Source of the DNA: an uncultured Collinsella sp.
GTDB lineage: Bacteria; Actinomycetota; Coriobacteriia; Coriobacteriales; Coriobacteriaceae
Length of the DNA: 13,871 nucleotides
Assembly (NCBI GenBank): GCA_958346165.1
Contig: CATVQO010000023.1
Coordinates: 1-13,871 of the forward strand
Direction of reading: 5' to 3'
In this document: positions 1 to 13,282 of the stretch, in pieces
Numbering within the stretch: position 1 is the first letter of the stretch
How the letters are laid out: each line of letters begins with the position of its first letter
Program-made: the position numbers and the translations under genes
Notes under the pieces: model-generated
The model's database searches: none
Told to the model about the DNA's origin: nothing
The model's input: the letters and a program-made list of their open reading frames with translations, nothing else

Positions 1-557
1 TGGGGCCCGAGATGAAGTCGACGGGCGAGGTCATGGGTATCGCCAAGAGCTATCCTGAGGCATACGCCAAGACGCAGCTGGCGATCGACTACAAGCTGCC
101 CGGCCCGAGTTGCGGCAAGGTGTTCATTAGCGTGTGCGACCGCGACAAGCGCCATATCCTTTCGGTCGCCCGTATCCTGCGCTATCTGGGCTTTGACATC
201 TGCTCTACCGAGGGTACGGCGCGCGTGCTGCGTGGAGGCAACGTGACGTGCGAGATCGTGGAGAAGATTAGCGGCCCGCACGACGGCGAGCGCCCCAACA
301 TCGGCGACCTCATCGCCGATGGCAAGATCGCGGTGATCATCAACACGCCGTACGGTCCGGGCTCGCGCGGCGACGGCTATCTGCTGCGCACCGAGGCAGT
401 GCGACGCGGTGTGACCTGCGTGACCGCGATGTCTGCCGCCAACACGTACGTGAGTGCCATCGAGGCGGTGCGTGAGGACCAGCAGGGTCACGGCAGCGCC
501 AACGACATGGGCATGGACGTCATCGCCCTGCAGGACCTGCCGCAGCACACGGTGTAA
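1..557 (+). CDS. carB: Carbamoyl-phosphate synthase large subunit, C-terminal part (5' end outside the window)
   Basis: This is the end of the large subunit that makes carbamoyl phosphate from glutamine-derived ammonia, bicarbonate and two ATP, feeding pyrimidine and arginine synthesis in the cytoplasm. The reading frame is open from base 3 and begins GPEMKSTGEVMG, the conserved end of the second ATP-grasp synthetase domain. About 35 residues later the MGS-like regulatory domain begins (KVFISVCDRDKRHI), with the typical STEGTA and NTPYGPGSRGDGYLLR segments that bind allosteric effectors in this family. The protein ends normally (QDLPQHTV, stop at 555-557), so only the 5' part is missing because of the window edge. 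The Met at base 12 is an internal codon, not the start. The gene is followed by a hairpin repeat and a strong terminator. The identification is close to certain from the motifs. Confidence 0.96.
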   Translation, partial: GPEMKSTGEVMGIAKSYPEAYAKTQLAIDYKLPGPSCGKVFISVCDRDKRHILSVARILRYLGFDICSTEGTARVLRGGNVTCEIVEKISGPHDGERPNIGDLIADGKIAVIINTPYGPGSRGDGYLLRTEAVRRGVTCVTAMSAANTYVSAIEAVREDQQGHGSANDMGMDVIALQDLPQHTV

Positions 558-569
558 TGTGACCTGGTC

Positions 570-654
570 GGCCGGGGCGGCAGCCGGACACTTTCTCTCG
601 GAAACTGGGCTTCGCGAAGTTTTCCGAGAGAAAGGACCGCCTCCCGCCCCGGCC
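570..654. repeat. Hairpin repeat, copy 1 (44-nt core at 591-634) inside a longer inverted repeat
   Basis: The core has a left arm at 591-606 and a right arm at 618-634 that pair over 16 bp with one bulged A. The 11-nt loop is GGGCTTCGCGA. An outer pair of arms, GGCCGGGGCGG (570-580) and CCGCCCCGGCC (644-654), is a perfect 11-bp inverted repeat around the core. The same core occurs in inverted orientation at 5834-5877, with 40 of 44 bases identical and all four differences compensatory. It lies just after carB. No U-tract follows the stem, so it does not look like a simple terminator. A REP/MITE-like dispersed element is the best description, and its function is unknown. Confidence 0.85.
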
Positions 655-727
655 TACGGTGACTCGGTTGCACCGTGTGCTGCCGAAGGGGCTTTGTGCG
701 ATGACTAGGGCTGAATAGAAAATGAGT

Positions 728-5729: not shown

Positions 5730-5832
5730 CGGGACAGTTGTGCCCATCAGCCACCGTCAACATCTCATTCCAAACCAAATCAGCCAACGTACGTCATGGC
5801 AATCCCCGGTAGGTTGCAGGATGGCGGCTGAG

Positions 5833-5878
5833 CCTTTCCCTCGGGAAACTTCGCGAAGCCCAGTTCCCGAGGGAAAGG
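5833..5878. repeat. Hairpin repeat, copy 2 (44-nt core at 5834-5877)
   Basis: The left arm (5834-5850) pairs with the right arm (5862-5877) over 16 bp with one bulged A, around the loop TCGCGAAGCCC. This loop is the exact reverse complement of the loop of copy 1 at 607-617. Both copies keep the bulge at the same place. Four of 44 bases differ, and these form two T-A to C-G type pair exchanges. Unlike copy 1 it has no GC-rich outer arms. Confidence 0.85.
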
Positions 5879-6186: not shown

Positions 6187-9100
6187 ATGCGCAGGAATTC
6201 CATTTTTACGAAACGGTGGGTGAAGGGAAGCGCGGTCCTCGTTGCCACTGCAGCGACGCTCGTGTTTGCCAATCCCCAGCAGGCGATTGCCACGCCACTC
6301 AAGGGCGTCGACTCGGCGACCGTGTCCCAGTCTGCCTCGAATGTCGTCGACATCGATTTCGCTGACGGCATCAAGGGCCGTATTACGTTCCTCGAGGACG
6401 GTATTTTCCGTTATAACGTCGACCCCAAGGGTGAGTTTTCCGAGTACGCCACGCCGCGTAGTAAGTCCCACACGGCTAAGATCCAGGCTCAGCCCGATAC
6501 CTCGGACACCTACAGCAAGCCGAGTGCGACGGTTGCCGACAAGGGCGACACTATCGAGATCACCGGCGGAAAGGCGACCGTGATCCTGGACAAGGCGACT
6601 GGCAAGATGAGTATCAAGTCAGGCGACCGTGTCGTGGTTTCCGAGTCCGCGTCCCTCGACCTTGATAAGAAGGGTACCGTCCAGACGCTCGCCAAGGAGA
6701 AGTCCGAGAACTTCTTTGGCGGCGGCACCCAGAACGGACGCTTCCTGCACACCAACCAGACCATCGCCATCTCCAACACGAACAACTGGACCGATGGCGG
6801 CGTTGCCTCGCCCAACCCGTTTTATTGGACGAGTGACGGCTACGGCGTACTCCGAAACACGTTTGCAGAGGGTTCCTACGACTTCGGTTCCACGGACTCA
6901 TCGACGGTCACGACTTTGCACAGCGAGAATGAGTTTGATGCCTACTACTTCGTGGCGACCAACGAGGGCGCTTCGAACGTGGCAACCGAGATGCTGCAGG
7001 ACTACTACAAGGTGACCGGTAACCCGGTACTGCTGCCCGAGTACGGGTTCTACCTTGGTCATCTTAATGCCTATAACCGTGATGGCTGGTCAACGACCTC
7101 GGGTCAAAAGAAGTGGGAGACCAAGGGCAGCAAGTCCTCGAGCGAGAAGGGCGACGTTAAGTACGAGTCTGGCATGTCGACGGGCTACAAGCTCGACGGC
7201 ACACTTGCGGCCGAGACGCTCAACGGTGAGGGCCCTACGGTTGATACCGAGAACATGAAAGCGACCGATTTCGACCGCCAGTTCTCTGCTCGTCAGGTTA
7301 TCGATGACTACGAGGACAACGACATGCCGCTCGGCTGGTTCCTGCCGAACGACGGTTACGGCGCCGGCTATGGCCAGAACGGTTACTACAAGACCGGCGG
7401 CGTCAACTCCGACGGAGCGAGCTCGGCCGACCGTCTTAACGCTGTGCGTGCCAATGTCGACAACCTTAAGAAGTTCACCGAGTATGCCAACTCCAAGGGT
7501 GTGAGCACGGGCTTGTGGACCCAGTCCAACCTTGAGCCCGACAGCAACCCTGAGACCCCGTGGCATCTGCTTCGCGACTTCGACGCCGAGGTCAAGACGG
7601 GAGGCATCACTACCCTTAAGACCGACGTTGCCTGGGTTGGATCTGGCTACTCCTTTGGTCTTAATGGCATCAAGACAGCTTATGACACGGTGACGACCGG
7701 CGCTAACAAGCGCCCCAACATCATCACGCTCGATGGTTGGGCCGGCACGCAGCGCTTTGGTGGCATTTGGACCGGCGACCAGTATGGCGGTAACTGGGAG
7801 TACATTCGCTTCCATATCCCCACGTATATCGGTCAGAGTCTTTCGGGCAACCCCAACATCGGCTCCGACATGGATGGCATCTTTGGCGGCGACCCCATCA
7901 TCTCTGCGCGTGACTACCAGTGGAAGACGTTCACGCCCTCTATGCTTGACATGGACGGTTGGGGCACCTACCGTAAATCGCCCATGACGCACGGCGATCC
8001 CTACACAGGCATCTCGCGCTTCTACCTCAAGCTCAAGGCGCAGCTCATGCCCTATATCTACACGAGCGCGGCCTCGGCGGCCAACATCGACACGGGTAAC
8101 GGCGATGCCGGCCTGCCCATGATCCGCGCCATGCTGCTTTCCGACAACTCCGAGTACGCCGCAAGCACTTCGACGCAGTACCAGTATATGTTCGGTGAGA
8201 ACTTCCTAGTGGCACCGGTGTATCAGGATACCCAGGCAGACGAGAACGGCAACGACATTCGCAATGGGATTTACCTCCCCAACTACGGCACCGACGAGAA
8301 TCCCACCATCTGGATCGATTACTTCTCGGGTAAGCAGTATCGCGGCGGCCAGGTTCTCAACAACTACGAGGCTCCGCTTTGGAAGCTGCCGCTGTTTGTG
8401 AAGGCCAACGCTATCGTGCCGATGTACGCCGAGAACAACAACCCCGAGGCCGTGAGCGACACCAACACCAAGGGTACCGACCGCAGCCAGCGTATCGTCG
8501 AGTTCTTCGCCACCGAGGGCGACGGCACCTTTACGCAGTACGAGGACGACGGCTCCTCCATCGAGAACAACACGACTGAGGACGATTCCTACGGCACGAT
8601 CGACAATATCTCCTACGGTGAGCATGTGAGCACCGTCTACAGCTCCAAGGCCGCAGGCGGCACCGCGACCTTTACCGCCGAGGCCTCGCAGGGCGGCTAC
8701 AACGGCTACGACTCCAACCGCACCACGACCTTCGTGGCCAATGTGTCCGCCAAGCCCACGAGCGTTGTCGCCAAGAACGGCGGATCCGCACTCAACGTGG
8801 TTGAGGTCGACTCGCAGGAGACCTTTGACGCCGCGACCCCCGAGGCCGGCCAGGCGGTCTACTTCTACAGCGAGACCCCCAACCTCAACCACTACGGCAG
8901 CGATGCGGACGGCACCGAGGCCGAGCAGGGCGAGAGCTTCAACAACACCAAGATCACCACGAACCCCAAGGTCTACGTCAAGTTCGCGAAGACCGATGTT
9001 GCTGCAGCGGCGCAGACGCTTGAGCTGGGCGGTTTCGTGAACGCCGACGCCACGCTCACAGCCGATCGCCTCAACGAGAACCTCTCCGCACCCACGAACC

Positions 9101-12100
9101 TTGCTGCCCCCGAGGACGCCACGACCCCAACGAGCATCAAGCTCACCTGGGGAAAGGTCGATGGTGCTACCTCCTACGACCTTAAGGTCGACGGCACTGT
9201 GTTTGCCGTGGGTGATGCGGCCGAGTTCACGCACACCGACCTCGCCTACAATAGCAAGCACACCTACCAGATTCGTTCGCGCAACGCCGAAGGTTACTCC
9301 GCCTGGAGCGATGTGCTCGAGGCGAACTCCGCACTCGATCCGTGGCGGAACGTCCCCGACGCCGAGGAAATCACCTGGGAGGGCTCACTTTACGGCAGCC
9401 ATAAGGCCGAGCTCGCCTTCGACCATGAGTTCCAGTCGGGCGACGGCGGTTTCCACTCCGGTGGCAACGATCTGGGCAAGGCGCTTACCGTTGACTATGG
9501 ACGCGCTTACAAGCTCGATAAGCTCGAGTACTATCCGCGCGATGACGCCGGCAACGGCACCGTGACCAAGATGCGTGTTGAGACGAGTCTCGATGGCGTC
9601 CACTGGACGAGCCAGGAGGTCGATTGGGCACGTTCCGCTGATTGTAAGACGGTAGCGTTTGACGGCACCGTGGCCGCCCGTTACGTGCGCATGACACCGC
9701 TCGCCTCGGTCGGCAATTTCTTCTCCGCGTCCGAGATTGCCATCTACAAGACCGACGGCACGGATGGCTTCGCCGTGGGCTCCAACCTCAACAAGGCCAC
9801 GATCTCCGACGGAGACTACTCCAACATGAAGAACTATCTGGGCCTCGAGAATCGCGAGCCCGATACCCCGACGTTCGGTTCGCAGATCCGCGACCACTTC
9901 GCCGACCTCAACGATAACGGCGTTTACGACGTCTACGATTACTCGTTCACCATGGCGGGTCTTGACGGCGGCACTAAACAAAAGGGCAAGGTCGCAGGTT
10001 CGCTCGCGGTGATTCCGAGCAAGACCGAGGTCGAGGCCGGTGATGAGATCACCGTTGATGTCTATGCGGCCGACGCCAAGAACGTCAACGCCCTGGGCGC
10101 CCTCGTCAACTTCAAGAGCGACCAGTTCGAGTTTGTGTCCGAGAGCATCGCGCAGGACGGCTCGACTGCCGGCATGGAGAACCTGTCTCGCGAGAAGGTC
10201 CAGTTCGTGGACGGAACGCAGACTATCAATCTCGCCTTTGCCAACCGCGGCGATGGCAAGCTCTACAACGGTACTGGCGCGGTGGCGAGTTTCAAGCTCA
10301 AGGCCAAGACCGCCGGAAAGGTCGAACTGCCCTCGACATCTTGGCTTATCGGCCCGGCATGCGACGCACTTGAGTTTGCGAGCGACGGCACGGTGACGAT
10401 GCCGGACGTTCCTCAGCCAACGGTCGCCGAGTACGCCCAGGATGCCTTCAACATCACGATGACCAACGATGAGCTCACGACCGACGACGGGACCAACGTC
10501 GAGAAACTTATCCAGCAGAAGAGCTATAACGCGCTGTTCGATAATAACGAGGGCGACAACGGCTTTGAGTTCCTGTGGAACTGGAGTGGCAACTGGGACA
10601 GCGAGGGTAAGCTACCGAGTTACGTGAAGCTTCCCACCACGATGACATTCGCATTTAAGACGCCGTCGAAACTCGATAGCGTCGAGGTCGTTAACCGCAA
10701 CGGCGGCAACGGAACCGTACAGAAGATCAAGGCCGTCGTGACGTTCGAGGATGGCTCGATCCAAGAGTTCGCGGGCGGGGAGTACGATTCCTTCCTGGCT
10801 CGCTACGCCTTTGACCTCTCTGCCGAGAACAAGGGCAAGAAGGCGACCAAGGTCGAGGCCACGCCGCTTGAGGCATCGGGTGACCAGATGCTCACACTGC
10901 GTGAGGTCAACTTCAACTACACGCAGGGTGTCGAGGCCATCGAGGGTGTCGAGCTAGGCAAGAACCAGACCGAGTTCTTTGAAGGCGACATTACGCCCGT
11001 CGACGCCAAGGCTACGCCTGAGAGCGCTGGCTACCCCTATGTGACGGTCGAGAGCTCCGACCCCTCTGTGGTAAGCGTCTCCGCTGTTCAGGCTGGCGAT
11101 AGCGTGAGCTACTACCTGCGTGCCAACAAGGCCGGCAAGGCAAAGATCACGGTGGCGTCGGTACTCGACCCCTCCAAGACCGCATCCTATGAGGTCGAGG
11201 TCAAGGCTGGTGTCGATACCTCTGCGCTCGTGGCAGCGCTTTCCAAGGCCGCGGGCTACAGCGAGTCCGTCTACACCAAGGATTCCTATGCAGCTCTCAC
11301 CACTGCGGTCGAGGCGGCTCGGAAGCTCCTCGACAGCGGCCAGGGCAGCTATAGCAAGAAGGATGTCGCAGACGCCACTGCCAAGATCGAGAAGGCAATC
11401 GACGGCCTCAAGATGCGCCCTGTCGATGAGAAGATCCTCATCAACACGCCCGAGAACCGCAAGAACGTCAAGGTGGCCGACTTCTCGAGTGAGGCCGACT
11501 ACGAGGGCAGCAACGCCGTCAACGCTCTCGACGGCGACGAGCGGACGCTTTGGCACAGCGACTGGGCCCATGGGACCGGTATGCCCCAGTATCTGAGTGT
11601 CGACCTGGGCCGCGACTACGATCTCACCGACGTTACATTCCTGCCGCGCCAGGACGGCGGCACTAACGGCGATATCTTCGAGGCCGAGATACTGGTCTCC
11701 GACACTGCCGACGGTTATGAGATGGGCACCGCCGCGTCGATGGGTACGTTCGCCTTCGACAACGACGGCCGCGTGCTCACCGACCGTGGCGACTGGAAGC
11801 AGATGAGCTTTGGCGCCGCGCGCGGTCGCTACGTGACCGTCAAGGTGATTCACGCCGGCGGTGGCGACGTTGATGCCTACTGCAGCATGGCGGAGCTCAA
11901 GTTCTACGGTACGGCCGTCCCCGATCCGGTGGCGAAGGATGATCTCGCTACCGCGATCGAAAAGGTTGATGCCGAGGTTGCTGCCGGCGACCTCAAGGCC
12001 GGTGACTACACCGAGGCCTCCTGGACGGCGCTCGAGAACGCCCTGGCGAGCGCCCGCGCCATCTTGAGCGATGAGGACGCCACGCAGGACGAGGTCGACC

Positions 12101-12600
12101 AGGCGCTCAGGGCGCTCGAGAGCGCCCGCGGCGCGCTCGAGAAGACCCCGGTGGTCCCGGTCGAGAATCCGACTAAGAAGCAGCTCAAGGCCCTGGTCAA
12201 GCAGGCGAAGGAGACTGACACCAGGGGCAAGACGGACGAGTCTGTCAAGGCCCTGACGGATGCCATTACCTACGCCGAGGACGTCTTGGGTGATGAGAAT
12301 GCTTCCGACACCCAGCTCCAGGCGGCCTATGACCAGCTCAAGCTGGCCATTGAGAGCCTCAGGGATGCCGACTCCGGCAACCAGGGCGGCTCGGGCAACC
12401 AGGGTTCCGGCAATGGCTCGAACGGCTGCAACCAGGCGGGCAAGCCCGCAGGCGACAAGGCCCAGGGCAGCAAGAAGAACGGTTCGGCGATCCCCAATAC
12501 CGGCGACCAGACGGCGGCGACCGTCGTGACCGTCGGTGGTCTCGGCGCCATCATCGCCGCGATCGGCGCTTTCTTCCATCGTCGCAGCAAGGCCAAGTAG
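6187..12600 (+). CDS. Cell-wall-anchored multimodular GH31 glycosidase (possible alpha-N-acetylgalactosaminidase)
   Basis: This is a secreted retaining alpha-glycosidase of about 2137 residues held on the wall. In order: signal peptide (1-35, basic MRRNSIFTKR, hydrophobic core, AIA cleavage site); GH31 N-terminal beta domain (FFGGGTQNGRF near 178); catalytic barrel from about 280, with probable nucleophile Asp480 in KTDVAWVG and acid/base Asp531 in GIWTGDQYGGNWEY; GH31 C-terminal beta domains; FN3 (about 967-1050); CBM32/F5-8C (1056-1192); dockerin-like calcium loop (DLNDNGVYDVYDYSF, from 1240); cohesin-like (1269-1409); CBM-like (1410-1582); Ig-like (1585-1675); FIVAR (1677-1745); F5-8C (1752-1911); two FIVAR (1917-2060); Gly/Ser/Asn linker; IPNTGD (2102-2107), hydrophobic helix and basic tail. 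The start is set by AAAGGAG at 6175-6181. GH31 is certain. The GalNAc specificity is inferred from the 51-residue spacing of the two Asp residues and the accessory modules, which recall enterococcal Nag31A; another alpha-glycoside remains possible. Confidence 0.93.
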   Translation: MRRNSIFTKRWVKGSAVLVATAATLVFANPQQAIATPLKGVDSATVSQSASNVVDIDFADGIKGRITFLEDGIFRYNVDPKGEFSEYATPRSKSHTAKIQAQPDTSDTYSKPSATVADKGDTIEITGGKATVILDKATGKMSIKSGDRVVVSESASLDLDKKGTVQTLAKEKSENFFGGGTQNGRFLHTNQTIAISNTNNWTDGGVASPNPFYWTSDGYGVLRNTFAEGSYDFGSTDSSTVTTLHSENEFDAYYFVATNEGASNVATEMLQDYYKVTGNPVLLPEYGFYLGHLNAYNRDGWSTTSGQKKWETKGSKSSSEKGDVKYESGMSTGYKLDGTLAAETLNGEGPTVDTENMKATDFDRQFSARQVIDDYEDNDMPLGWFLPNDGYGAGYGQNGYYKTGGVNSDGASSADRLNAVRANVDNLKKFTEYANSKGVSTGLWTQSNLEPDSNPETPWHLLRDFDAEVKTGGITTLKTDVAWVGSGYSFGLNGIKTAYDTVTTGANKRPNIITLDGWAGTQRFGGIWTGDQYGGNWEYIRFHIPTYIGQSLSGNPNIGSDMDGIFGGDPIISARDYQWKTFTPSMLDMDGWGTYRKSPMTHGDPYTGISRFYLKLKAQLMPYIYTSAASAANIDTGNGDAGLPMIRAMLLSDNSEYAASTSTQYQYMFGENFLVAPVYQDTQADENGNDIRNGIYLPNYGTDENPTIWIDYFSGKQYRGGQVLNNYEAPLWKLPLFVKANAIVPMYAENNNPEAVSDTNTKGTDRSQRIVEFFATEGDGTFTQYEDDGSSIENNTTEDDSYGTIDNISYGEHVSTVYSSKAAGGTATFTAEASQGGYNGYDSNRTTTFVANVSAKPTSVVAKNGGSALNVVEVDSQETFDAATPEAGQAVYFYSETPNLNHYGSDADGTEAEQGESFNNTKITTNPKVYVKFAKTDVAAAAQTLELGGFVNADATLTADRLNENLSAPTNLAAPEDATTPTSIKLTWGKVDGATSYDLKVDGTVFAVGDAAEFTHTDLAYNSKHTYQIRSRNAEGYSAWSDVLEANSALDPWRNVPDAEEITWEGSLYGSHKAELAFDHEFQSGDGGFHSGGNDLGKALTVDYGRAYKLDKLEYYPRDDAGNGTVTKMRVETSLDGVHWTSQEVDWARSADCKTVAFDGTVAARYVRMTPLASVGNFFSASEIAIYKTDGTDGFAVGSNLNKATISDGDYSNMKNYLGLENREPDTPTFGSQIRDHFADLNDNGVYDVYDYSFTMAGLDGGTKQKGKVAGSLAVIPSKTEVEAGDEITVDVYAADAKNVNALGALVNFKSDQFEFVSESIAQDGSTAGMENLSREKVQFVDGTQTINLAFANRGDGKLYNGTGAVASFKLKAKTAGKVELPSTSWLIGPACDALEFASDGTVTMPDVPQPTVAEYAQDAFNITMTNDELTTDDGTNVEKLIQQKSYNALFDNNEGDNGFEFLWNWSGNWDSEGKLPSYVKLPTTMTFAFKTPSKLDSVEVVNRNGGNGTVQKIKAVVTFEDGSIQEFAGGEYDSFLARYAFDLSAENKGKKATKVEATPLEASGDQMLTLREVNFNYTQGVEAIEGVELGKNQTEFFEGDITPVDAKATPESAGYPYVTVESSDPSVVSVSAVQAGDSVSYYLRANKAGKAKITVASVLDPSKTASYEVEVKAGVDTSALVAALSKAAGYSESVYTKDSYAALTTAVEAARKLLDSGQGSYSKKDVADATAKIEKAIDGLKMRPVDEKILINTPENRKNVKVADFSSEADYEGSNAVNALDGDERTLWHSDWAHGTGMPQYLSVDLGRDYDLTDVTFLPRQDGGTNGDIFEAEILVSDTADGYEMGTAASMGTFAFDNDGRVLTDRGDWKQMSFGAARGRYVTVKVIHAGGGDVDAYCSMAELKFYGTAVPDPVAKDDLATAIEKVDAEVAAGDLKAGDYTEASWTALENALASARAILSDEDATQDEVDQALRALESARGALEKTPVVPVENPTKKQLKALVKQAKETDTRGKTDESVKALTDAITYAEDVLGDENASDTQLQAAYDQLKLAIESLRDADSGNQGGSGNQGSGNGSNGCNQAGKPAGDKAQGSKKNGSAIPNTGDQTAATVVTVGGLGAIIAAIGAFFHRRSKAK

Positions 12601-12809: not shown

Positions 12810-12817
12810 CTATGTTT

Positions 12818-13282
12818 ATGGCAGATCAGAAGCCGGTTGTCGGGATCATCATGGGTTCCAAGTCCGATCTGGGCGTTATGGAAGGCTGCACCGCCGAGCT
12901 CGAGGCACTGGGTGTGCCCTATGAGCTCGTCATTGCGAGCGCGCACCGCACGCCGGCGAAGGTCCACGAGTGGGCTTCGACTGCTGCCGATCGCGGTATC
13001 AAAGTGATTATCGCCGCCGCCGGCAAGGCCGCTCACTTGGGTGGTGTCGTGGCTGCCTTTACGCCGCTGCCGGTTATCGGCGTGCCTATGAAGACGAGTG
13101 ACCTGGGCGGTATGGATTCGCTGCTGTCGATGGTGCAGATGCCTTCGGGCGTGCCCGTGGCCTGCGTTGCCATCAACGGTGCCAAGAACGCCGCCATCTA
13201 TGCCACACAGATTCTGGGTGCTTGCGACCCCGAGTACCGCAAGGTTATCGAGAAGATGAAGCAGGAGATGGCTGACGCCTAA
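12818..13282 (+). CDS. purE: N5-carboxyaminoimidazole ribonucleotide mutase
   Basis: This 154-residue cytoplasmic enzyme converts N5-CAIR to CAIR in de novo purine synthesis and normally acts as an octamer. The class I signature is clear: VGIIMGSKSDLGVM (phosphate loop), IASAHRTPAKVHEW with the conserved His, IIAAAGKAAHLGGVVAA, and the late PVIGVPMKTSDLGGMDSLLSMVQMPSGVPVACVAI. Length is normal. The usual partner PurK is not in the window. The start at 12818 (MADQKPVV) is preferred over 12812 because of ribosome binding site spacing. A terminator upstream separates it from the GH31 gene. A sortase gene follows after 35 bp with no terminator between, so the two are probably cotranscribed, although their functions are unrelated. 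Confidence 0.97.
   Translation: MADQKPVVGIIMGSKSDLGVMEGCTAELEALGVPYELVIASAHRTPAKVHEWASTAADRGIKVIIAAAGKAAHLGGVVAAFTPLPVIGVPMKTSDLGGMDSLLSMVQMPSGVPVACVAINGAKNAAIYATQILGACDPEYRKVIEKMKQEMADA

Follow-up and report, generated by a model that had tools for sequence, protein, structure and literature searches.

The window, by which we mean the whole 13,871-nt stretch of Collinsella DNA that was analyzed, begins with the 3' end of a gene that we take to be carB and reaches, near its other end, a gene that is presumably purE. Two hairpins in opposite orientations lie between them, with the following features.

3 to 557, plus strand: 3' end of carB; between its stop codon and copy 1 lie 12 nt up to the middle stem and 33 nt up to the inner stem
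536 to 557, plus strand: outermost 5' arm of the copy 1 palindrome, made of the last carB codons and the stop; 22 nt, 86% complementary, centre shared with the hairpin
567 to 657, plus strand: extended hairpin of copy 1, in which the middle stem GGCCGGGGCGG / CCGCCCCGGCC encloses the inner hairpin; a somewhat altered form of this stem bears tip A or tip B in other genomes
591 to 634, plus strand: copy 1 (site X), inner hairpin of 16 bp with one bulge and the tip GGGCTTCGCGA at 607 to 617
668 to 689, plus strand: outermost 3' arm of the copy 1 palindrome, which matches the carB end imperfectly in reverse complement
728 to 763, no strand assigned: ordinary terminator-like hairpin with a T-run, lying after copy 1 and before the GntR-like gene
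5781 to 5814, plus strand: left flank of copy 2, which in other genomes precedes the purE-side hairpin
5834 to 5877, minus strand: copy 2 (site P), inner hairpin with the same tip as copy 1, its orientation opposed to the flanking genes
12812 to 13282, plus strand: purE, the other border of the variable carB-purE interval

A sequence-only reading had described two covarying 44-nt hairpins in inverted orientation, and these are real. The copies are identical at 40 of 44 positions, and the mismatches (positions 6, 12, 33, and 39) amount to one T-A pair changed to C-G and one A-T pair changed to G-C, both compensatory. As that reading had said, the copies have the same 11-nt loop, each contains a single bulged base (a U on the copy 1 strand, an A on the opposite strand), and inspection of both found no U-tract on the 3' side of either. 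Of the inverted pairs listed for the window, theirs is the longest (45 nt, 91%; the runner-up is 37 nt, 76%), and all four folds tested had better energies than 200 of 200 shuffles (z of -4.47 to -5.38). The proposed extent of 44 nt holds for the inner hairpin but not for copy 1 as a whole, where two further arm pairs, 567-587/637-657 (86%) and 536-557/668-689 (86%), are concentric with the hairpin around a centre at about 612. Copy 1 is the core of a larger concentric palindrome, 536 to 689, which overlaps the 3' end of carB. At the copy 2 position, two other genomes (G003 and G025) have a counterpart with a 30-bp stem.

The carB-purE interval is gene-free between its hairpins in some genomes (e.g., L271) and about 12 kb long in the window. 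Copy 2 retains its purE-side left flank, and its next gene is now a large glycoside-hydrolase-like gene. The product of that gene (6220-12600, plus strand), a very large secreted-looking protein that adjoins copy 2 inside the variable interval, is presumably related to glycoside hydrolase family 31, with what we take to be a C-terminal sorting-type motif, IPNTGD. Upstream of the GntR-like gene, a 21-nt inverted repeat (86%) at 1729-1779 is a possible operator.

Both borders of the interval could be followed across genomes. On the 3' side of carB, most of the outer stem is common to 22 loci of other genomes (L279 and L280 are the most altered); eight carry tip A, which is the window tip, 13 carry tip B, and one has lost the hairpin. 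On the purE side, among 11 unique hairpins, one has tip A and ten have tip C or a variant of it; tip C resembles tip B by eye. Within the 30 nt beside the tip at site P (11 hairpins, 55 pairs), a hairpin's own arms are 94% alike and the same arm is 69% alike between genomes, while the flanks are 97% alike. Additionally, a comparison of loci L041 and L045 shows 24 differences in 240 positions, and inverting one 88-bp segment removes 22 of these differences. Judged from the alignments, the arm likeness at site P and this inversion bear the signature of template switching between inverted repeats. Such switching is described as generating and maintaining hairpins (PMC8794818) and as homogenizing arms and inverting spacers (PMC8604942). 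Paired changes, arm homogenization, and spacer inversion are shared with the hairpins of these two papers, which concern RNA genes and yeast coding DNA, whereas ours form a dispersed bacterial family. At another locus (L268, genome G020), inverted copies of the purE-side left flank stand on both sides of a C-type hairpin, an arrangement that suggests a genomic inversion with its ends at two hairpins.

The family extends well past this interval. The idea of a family was to be given up if a genome held only two copies; the nearest genome (G001, with 93% of the window's sampled words shared) holds four places matched by covariance model R1, and a third place there combines the 11-nt tip with a 37-bp stem of unrelated sequence. 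Built from 12 hairpins of the tip-bearing type, R1 matches 26 of 43 genomes of the genus, presumably Collinsella (E 0.01), and, at the order level, 23 of 149 genomes in 5 of 77 genera (E 1e-4). A second model, R2, built from 54 Atopobiaceae hairpins, has hits in 19 of 30 chosen genomes; G082 (putative Thermophilibacter) accounts for 39 matches and G027 for 30, counts in which a single hairpin can score on both strands. Phylum-wide and under stricter filters, R2 matches 5 of 296 genomes, all five from Coriobacteriales. When GTDB contigs were scanned for the tip, at least 119 stretches were returned. Among the 135 tip matches listed (one viral contig included), 107 sit on stems of at least 16 bp, in most cases 22 bp or more, and 28 on shorter ones; 80 of the stretches listed come with titles, and the 11 of these from outside Coriobacteriia have stems of only 4-9 bp. 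A reading as DNA-uptake sequences was weighed against these short stems and put aside. The viral contig has the tip on a stem of only 5 bp. A viral or plasmid origin was considered and rejected, window positions 560-665 being unmatched in phage and plasmid records.

We found no named family to which these hairpins belong, as the sequence-only reading had supposed. Rfam release 15 gives nothing above threshold in the window, and its matches at seven family loci are all below the gathering score and nearly all to microRNA models. The Collinsella-1 RNA (RF01700), as named in PMC2864571, has the genus name in common and is not among the Rfam matches of the window or of these seven loci. Among the best-ranked titles and abstract openings in the literature, there was no published account of this hairpin family.

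Other giant hairpins occur in these genomes. A second Collinsella locus, whose genes we take to be a phosphoketolase, an AEC-type transporter, and GntR, has one to four of them (L077, L078, L079, L080, L081, and L092); at L080 the arms are unlike and the transporter is missing, as if two hairpins had recombined. G082 has another giant hairpin family with variable arms of 24-31 nt (L346:19770-19869, L347:14567-14809, and L352:12674-12757), whose tip is GAGTTCTTGCCG...CGGCAAGCTGTCTGA or a variant.

Next to the spread of the family stands the pairing of its stems, which are shown to be free in sequence yet paired across sites. In alignment A8 (54 sequences, 24 pairs, 1,296 cells), 97.1% of the cells are paired, a percentage raised by a row filter that favors pairing (rows from the matches listed that formed no fewer than 11 of 17 outer pairs and had a new outer arm, with only three inner-stem types taken). 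The same alignment has 271 cells with two-sided changes, 8 with one-sided changes, and 38 unpaired cells; shuffles gave 71 two-sided cells, and slid partners gave at most 62. Only 9 of the 1,296 cells are G-U. Alignment A5 (12 sequences) contains 61 two-sided, 3 one-sided, and 11 unpaired cells. With a model that finds relatives and covariation far above the controls, the proposal of a dispersed, structure-conserving family is upheld. Noncompensatory stem changes had been named as evidence against it, and here the outcome is divided: two-sided changes dominate overall, but the seven window-type bulged rows (six distinct) have 78.5% of their cells paired, no better than shuffles, and 21.5% unpaired, mostly in the outer part. 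The covariation signal of these rows is weak, with five two-sided cells (equalled by 24 of 500 shuffles) and a covariation score equalled by 9 of 500. We also considered an outer helix abutting the stop codon and set it aside; past the main stem there are 11.8 pairs compared with 9.6 in controls, a slight excess.

To place the hairpins relative to genes, we used a gene caller that was seeded with the window genes and returned the expected ones. Among the matches listed, the tip pattern gave 98 unique hairpins, 88 with both neighbors called and 10 at contig edges. In the frame of the tip, the 88 fall into 46 with both neighbors on the same strand as the tip (++), 25 convergent (+-), and 17 with both on the opposite strand (--), with none between divergent genes and none inside genes. 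A same-strand gene lies upstream of 71 of the 88, and 67 of these 71 hairpins sit 9-33 nt past its stop codon (the rest at -17, 3, 49, and 58). Divergent gaps make up 25 of 156 in a background sample from G082, against no hairpins (p = 5e-7), and the tandem copies are biased in orientation, 46 versus 17 (p = 0.0003); both p values are optimistic because orthologs of one site in related species each entered the count. The 17 opposed copies are 45-223 nt away from the next stop codon, and several are the second member of an inverted pair; 5 of the 25 convergent copies are also within 44 nt of the second gene's stop. The upstream genes (70) fall into 29 C-terminus clusters, one of which ends like a protein that we take to be GroEL. 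Most copies are thus shown to lie just past a stop codon, with the tip then oriented one way relative to the gene, and the family is found mostly 3' of stop codons in Collinsella, Olsenella, and relatives.

The tip is shown to recur on unlike stems. Because the search pattern of the GTDB scan fixed its letters, the invariance of the tip in that set is uninformative, and the 20 tip columns of A8 are invariant by construction. Five groEL loci found by homology and not by the tip bear it all the same. In a scan for any long hairpin, the A-type tip is found in 5 of 79 hits in G059 and 10 of 42 in G082, in two 400-kb samples that were picked so as to include known matches. The tip variants found by R1 include GGGCTCCGCGA, GGGTTTTGCTA, and GCGCTTCGCGAA.

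The sequence-only reading likened the hairpins to REP or MITE elements and proposed a search for a REP-associated tyrosine transposase. As such elements, they would be selfish short palindromes, spread by a transposase and tolerated 3' of genes. The dispersed copies agree with this comparison, as do inverted neighboring pairs (L154, L174, L184, and L190), and in G027 many of the 30 model matches have identical scores and 15 aligned copies are nearly identical, so spread of some kind occurred there. The G027 hairpins (L438-L453) sit within a larger mosaic repeat, and they look like products of recent amplification, which would fit a mobile repeat. According to the account in PMC3733652, REPs prefer gene ends and are rare between divergent genes, which is also the placement of our 88 listed copies, and they resemble the family in being extragenic, near gene 3' ends, in inverted pairs, and with alternative paired letters in the stem. 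GTAG REPs are described there as having stems of 6-13 bp within elements of 20-40 bp, although loops with as many as 27 bp of complementary residues are also noted. Main stems here are mostly 22-37 bp (107 of the 135 listed are at least 16 bp), they differ in sequence at most sites outside G027, tips are exchanged at fixed loci, and G-U pairs are almost absent, in contrast to the GT pairs often seen in the REPs of that account. GTAG, which in such REPs stands unpaired at one foot of the palindrome, is present in 33 of 70 cases versus 102 of 323 in the background (p = 0.018) and is usually the stop codon of the upstream gene, which weakens a reading of the hairpins as GTAG-tagged REPs; TAG stops are slightly overused (52 of 70 versus 185 of 323, p = 0.010), a point in favor of REPs.

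Y1_Tnp has 85 matches in 37 of 43 Collinsella genomes and 37 matches in 15 of 19 chosen others. In flanks of up to about 1.5 kb a side, fetched for 50 of these 122 matches (30 from the genus and 20 from the others), R2 had no match at E 0.1, and R1 had a single 26-nt match (E 0.01, L363) to a short hairpin that lacks the tip. Five hairpin-bearing genomes (G027, which is 1.7 Mb, G033, G066, G047, and G100) have no Y1_Tnp match at E 0.001; the mobilizing gene may have been lost there or be a different one. The expected link to a transposase was therefore not borne out in this sample, and of the REP/MITE comparison the dispersal stands and the transposase does not. Three Y1_Tnp genes (L368, L370, and L379) lie near GGGACAG-type inverted repeats, reminiscent of the TIRYT arrangement as PMC3733652 presents it. 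We consider a transposase-spread selfish element rather unlikely as the explanation of the family as a whole.

Intrinsic (Rho-independent) terminators likewise have a GC-rich hairpin in sense orientation, and the family shares with them its usual position 9-33 nt past the stop. Unlike them, it has a recurring 20-nt tip, main stems mostly of 22-37 bp, and no clear U-tract: among 69 stop-proximal copies, T occupies 57% of first bases 3' of the stem and 23-45% at bases 2-8, a moderate enrichment. Copy 1 itself has an ordinary terminator after it, as do 9 of 46 cores and 2 of 5 groEL cores, so the terminator may be something other than the hairpin. As a possible sign that cores replace ordinary terminators, the 9 of 46 core sites (200 nt examined) compare with 17 of 56 control gaps in G082 and 32 of 72 in G059 (270 nt), where shuffled sequence gave 6 and 3. 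Among the 30 best-scoring groEL loci, five have the core, and 14 of the other 25 have an ordinary terminator in that place by the script's rule; several remaining groEL loci that lack the core have other giant hairpins. Giant hairpins with other inner modules are present at groEL 3' ends in other Atopobiaceae genera (L405, L409, L410, L414, and L415), and the module CAAACGTCCTC...TGCGGAATGTTTG occurs at the groEL 3' end in two genera.

These hairpins could be strong intrinsic terminators of the ordinary kind that need no factor, their similar tips being due to inheritance or convergence, as with stable UUCG-type loops. Their position just past stop codons fits, hairpin terminators that lack a poly-U trail are reported in PMC8355165, and the fixed letters of the A8 tip are partly an effect of the search pattern. 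However, the same tip sits on unlike stems at the five homology-found groEL loci and in the unbiased scan, tip orientation is uniform at stop-proximal tandem sites, and other genera have other inner modules at the same groEL place. We therefore judge this quite unlikely. A human-microbiome survey lists 250 palindromic candidate structured RNAs, 230 of them with terminator predictions (PMC8040213); as described there, some could overlap the family, a likeness drawn from the descriptions. The family is partly REP-like and partly terminator-like, and it departs from each at the defining trait: from REPs in its size and, within the sample, in having no adjacent transposase, and from terminators in the U-tract.

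Alternatively, a protein could bind the cruciform or the tip in DNA, in connection with the nucleoid, supercoiling, or recombination. Pairs that are almost exclusively Watson-Crick would suit such a site, as would the variable gene content next to the hairpins in the carB-purE and phosphoketolase/transporter intervals. A DNA site, however, needs neither an orientation and distance that track the upstream gene nor empty divergent gaps, and we hold this to be very unlikely.

What we consider somewhat better than an even bet is that these are oriented RNA hairpins at 3' ends, acting as terminators or decay barriers, with a recurring head and with arms kept complementary largely by replication template switching. 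The element would act in the transcript, either by terminating it without a classical U-tract or by forming a barrier at which the mRNA 3' end is set; its gap to the stop codon suits either role. Selection on RNA is indicated because the asymmetric tip is uniformly oriented behind tandem genes although a palindrome can flip. The recurring tip and the missing U-tract together suggest a protein partner, and RNA polymerase, a Nus-type factor, or an RNase may read the oriented tip. Template switching across the palindrome during replication would copy one arm onto the other, a step with direct support in the arm likeness at site P, the 88-bp inversion, and the carB end within the concentric palindrome; paired changes would therefore arise, flanks, even the end of carB, would be drawn in, and the centre would sometimes be flipped. 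RNA-level selection would then hold the tip in one orientation 3' of genes. Copy 1 would be the carB 3'-end element, and copy 2 a copy turned the other way within the carB-purE interval, a region in which cargo genes come and go. Weighing against this reading, 17 of the 88 listed copies and copy 2 itself face the other way, and the G027 copies are nearly identical, like those of a recently amplified mobile repeat. A function as terminator or barrier is what position and orientation lead us to infer.

More tentatively, and less likely than not, Coriobacteriales may possess a modular 3'-end system, in which a dedicated factor reads an oriented RNA head that can be exchanged (families A, B/C, and others), the stem is freely rewritten by template switching, and messages end at sites that have no U-tract. 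If so, each gene would have a stem of its own as a scaffold that keeps changing. By what means long, perfect hairpins keep their two arms matched has long been asked in the study of RNA evolution. On this, culturable gut bacteria offer a natural data set here: dozens of stems unlike one another that share one tip, a clean inversion, and a hairpin arm copied from the end of a gene. New here are the position at the stop codon, the orientation, tip exchange and inversion at fixed loci, and the larger palindrome. With a tip that varies little and stem sides that change in step, the family is a natural case for the study of how messages end and how perfect hairpins are kept up, and if its tip is read by a factor, it would represent a U-tract-free way of ending transcripts in a poorly studied class.
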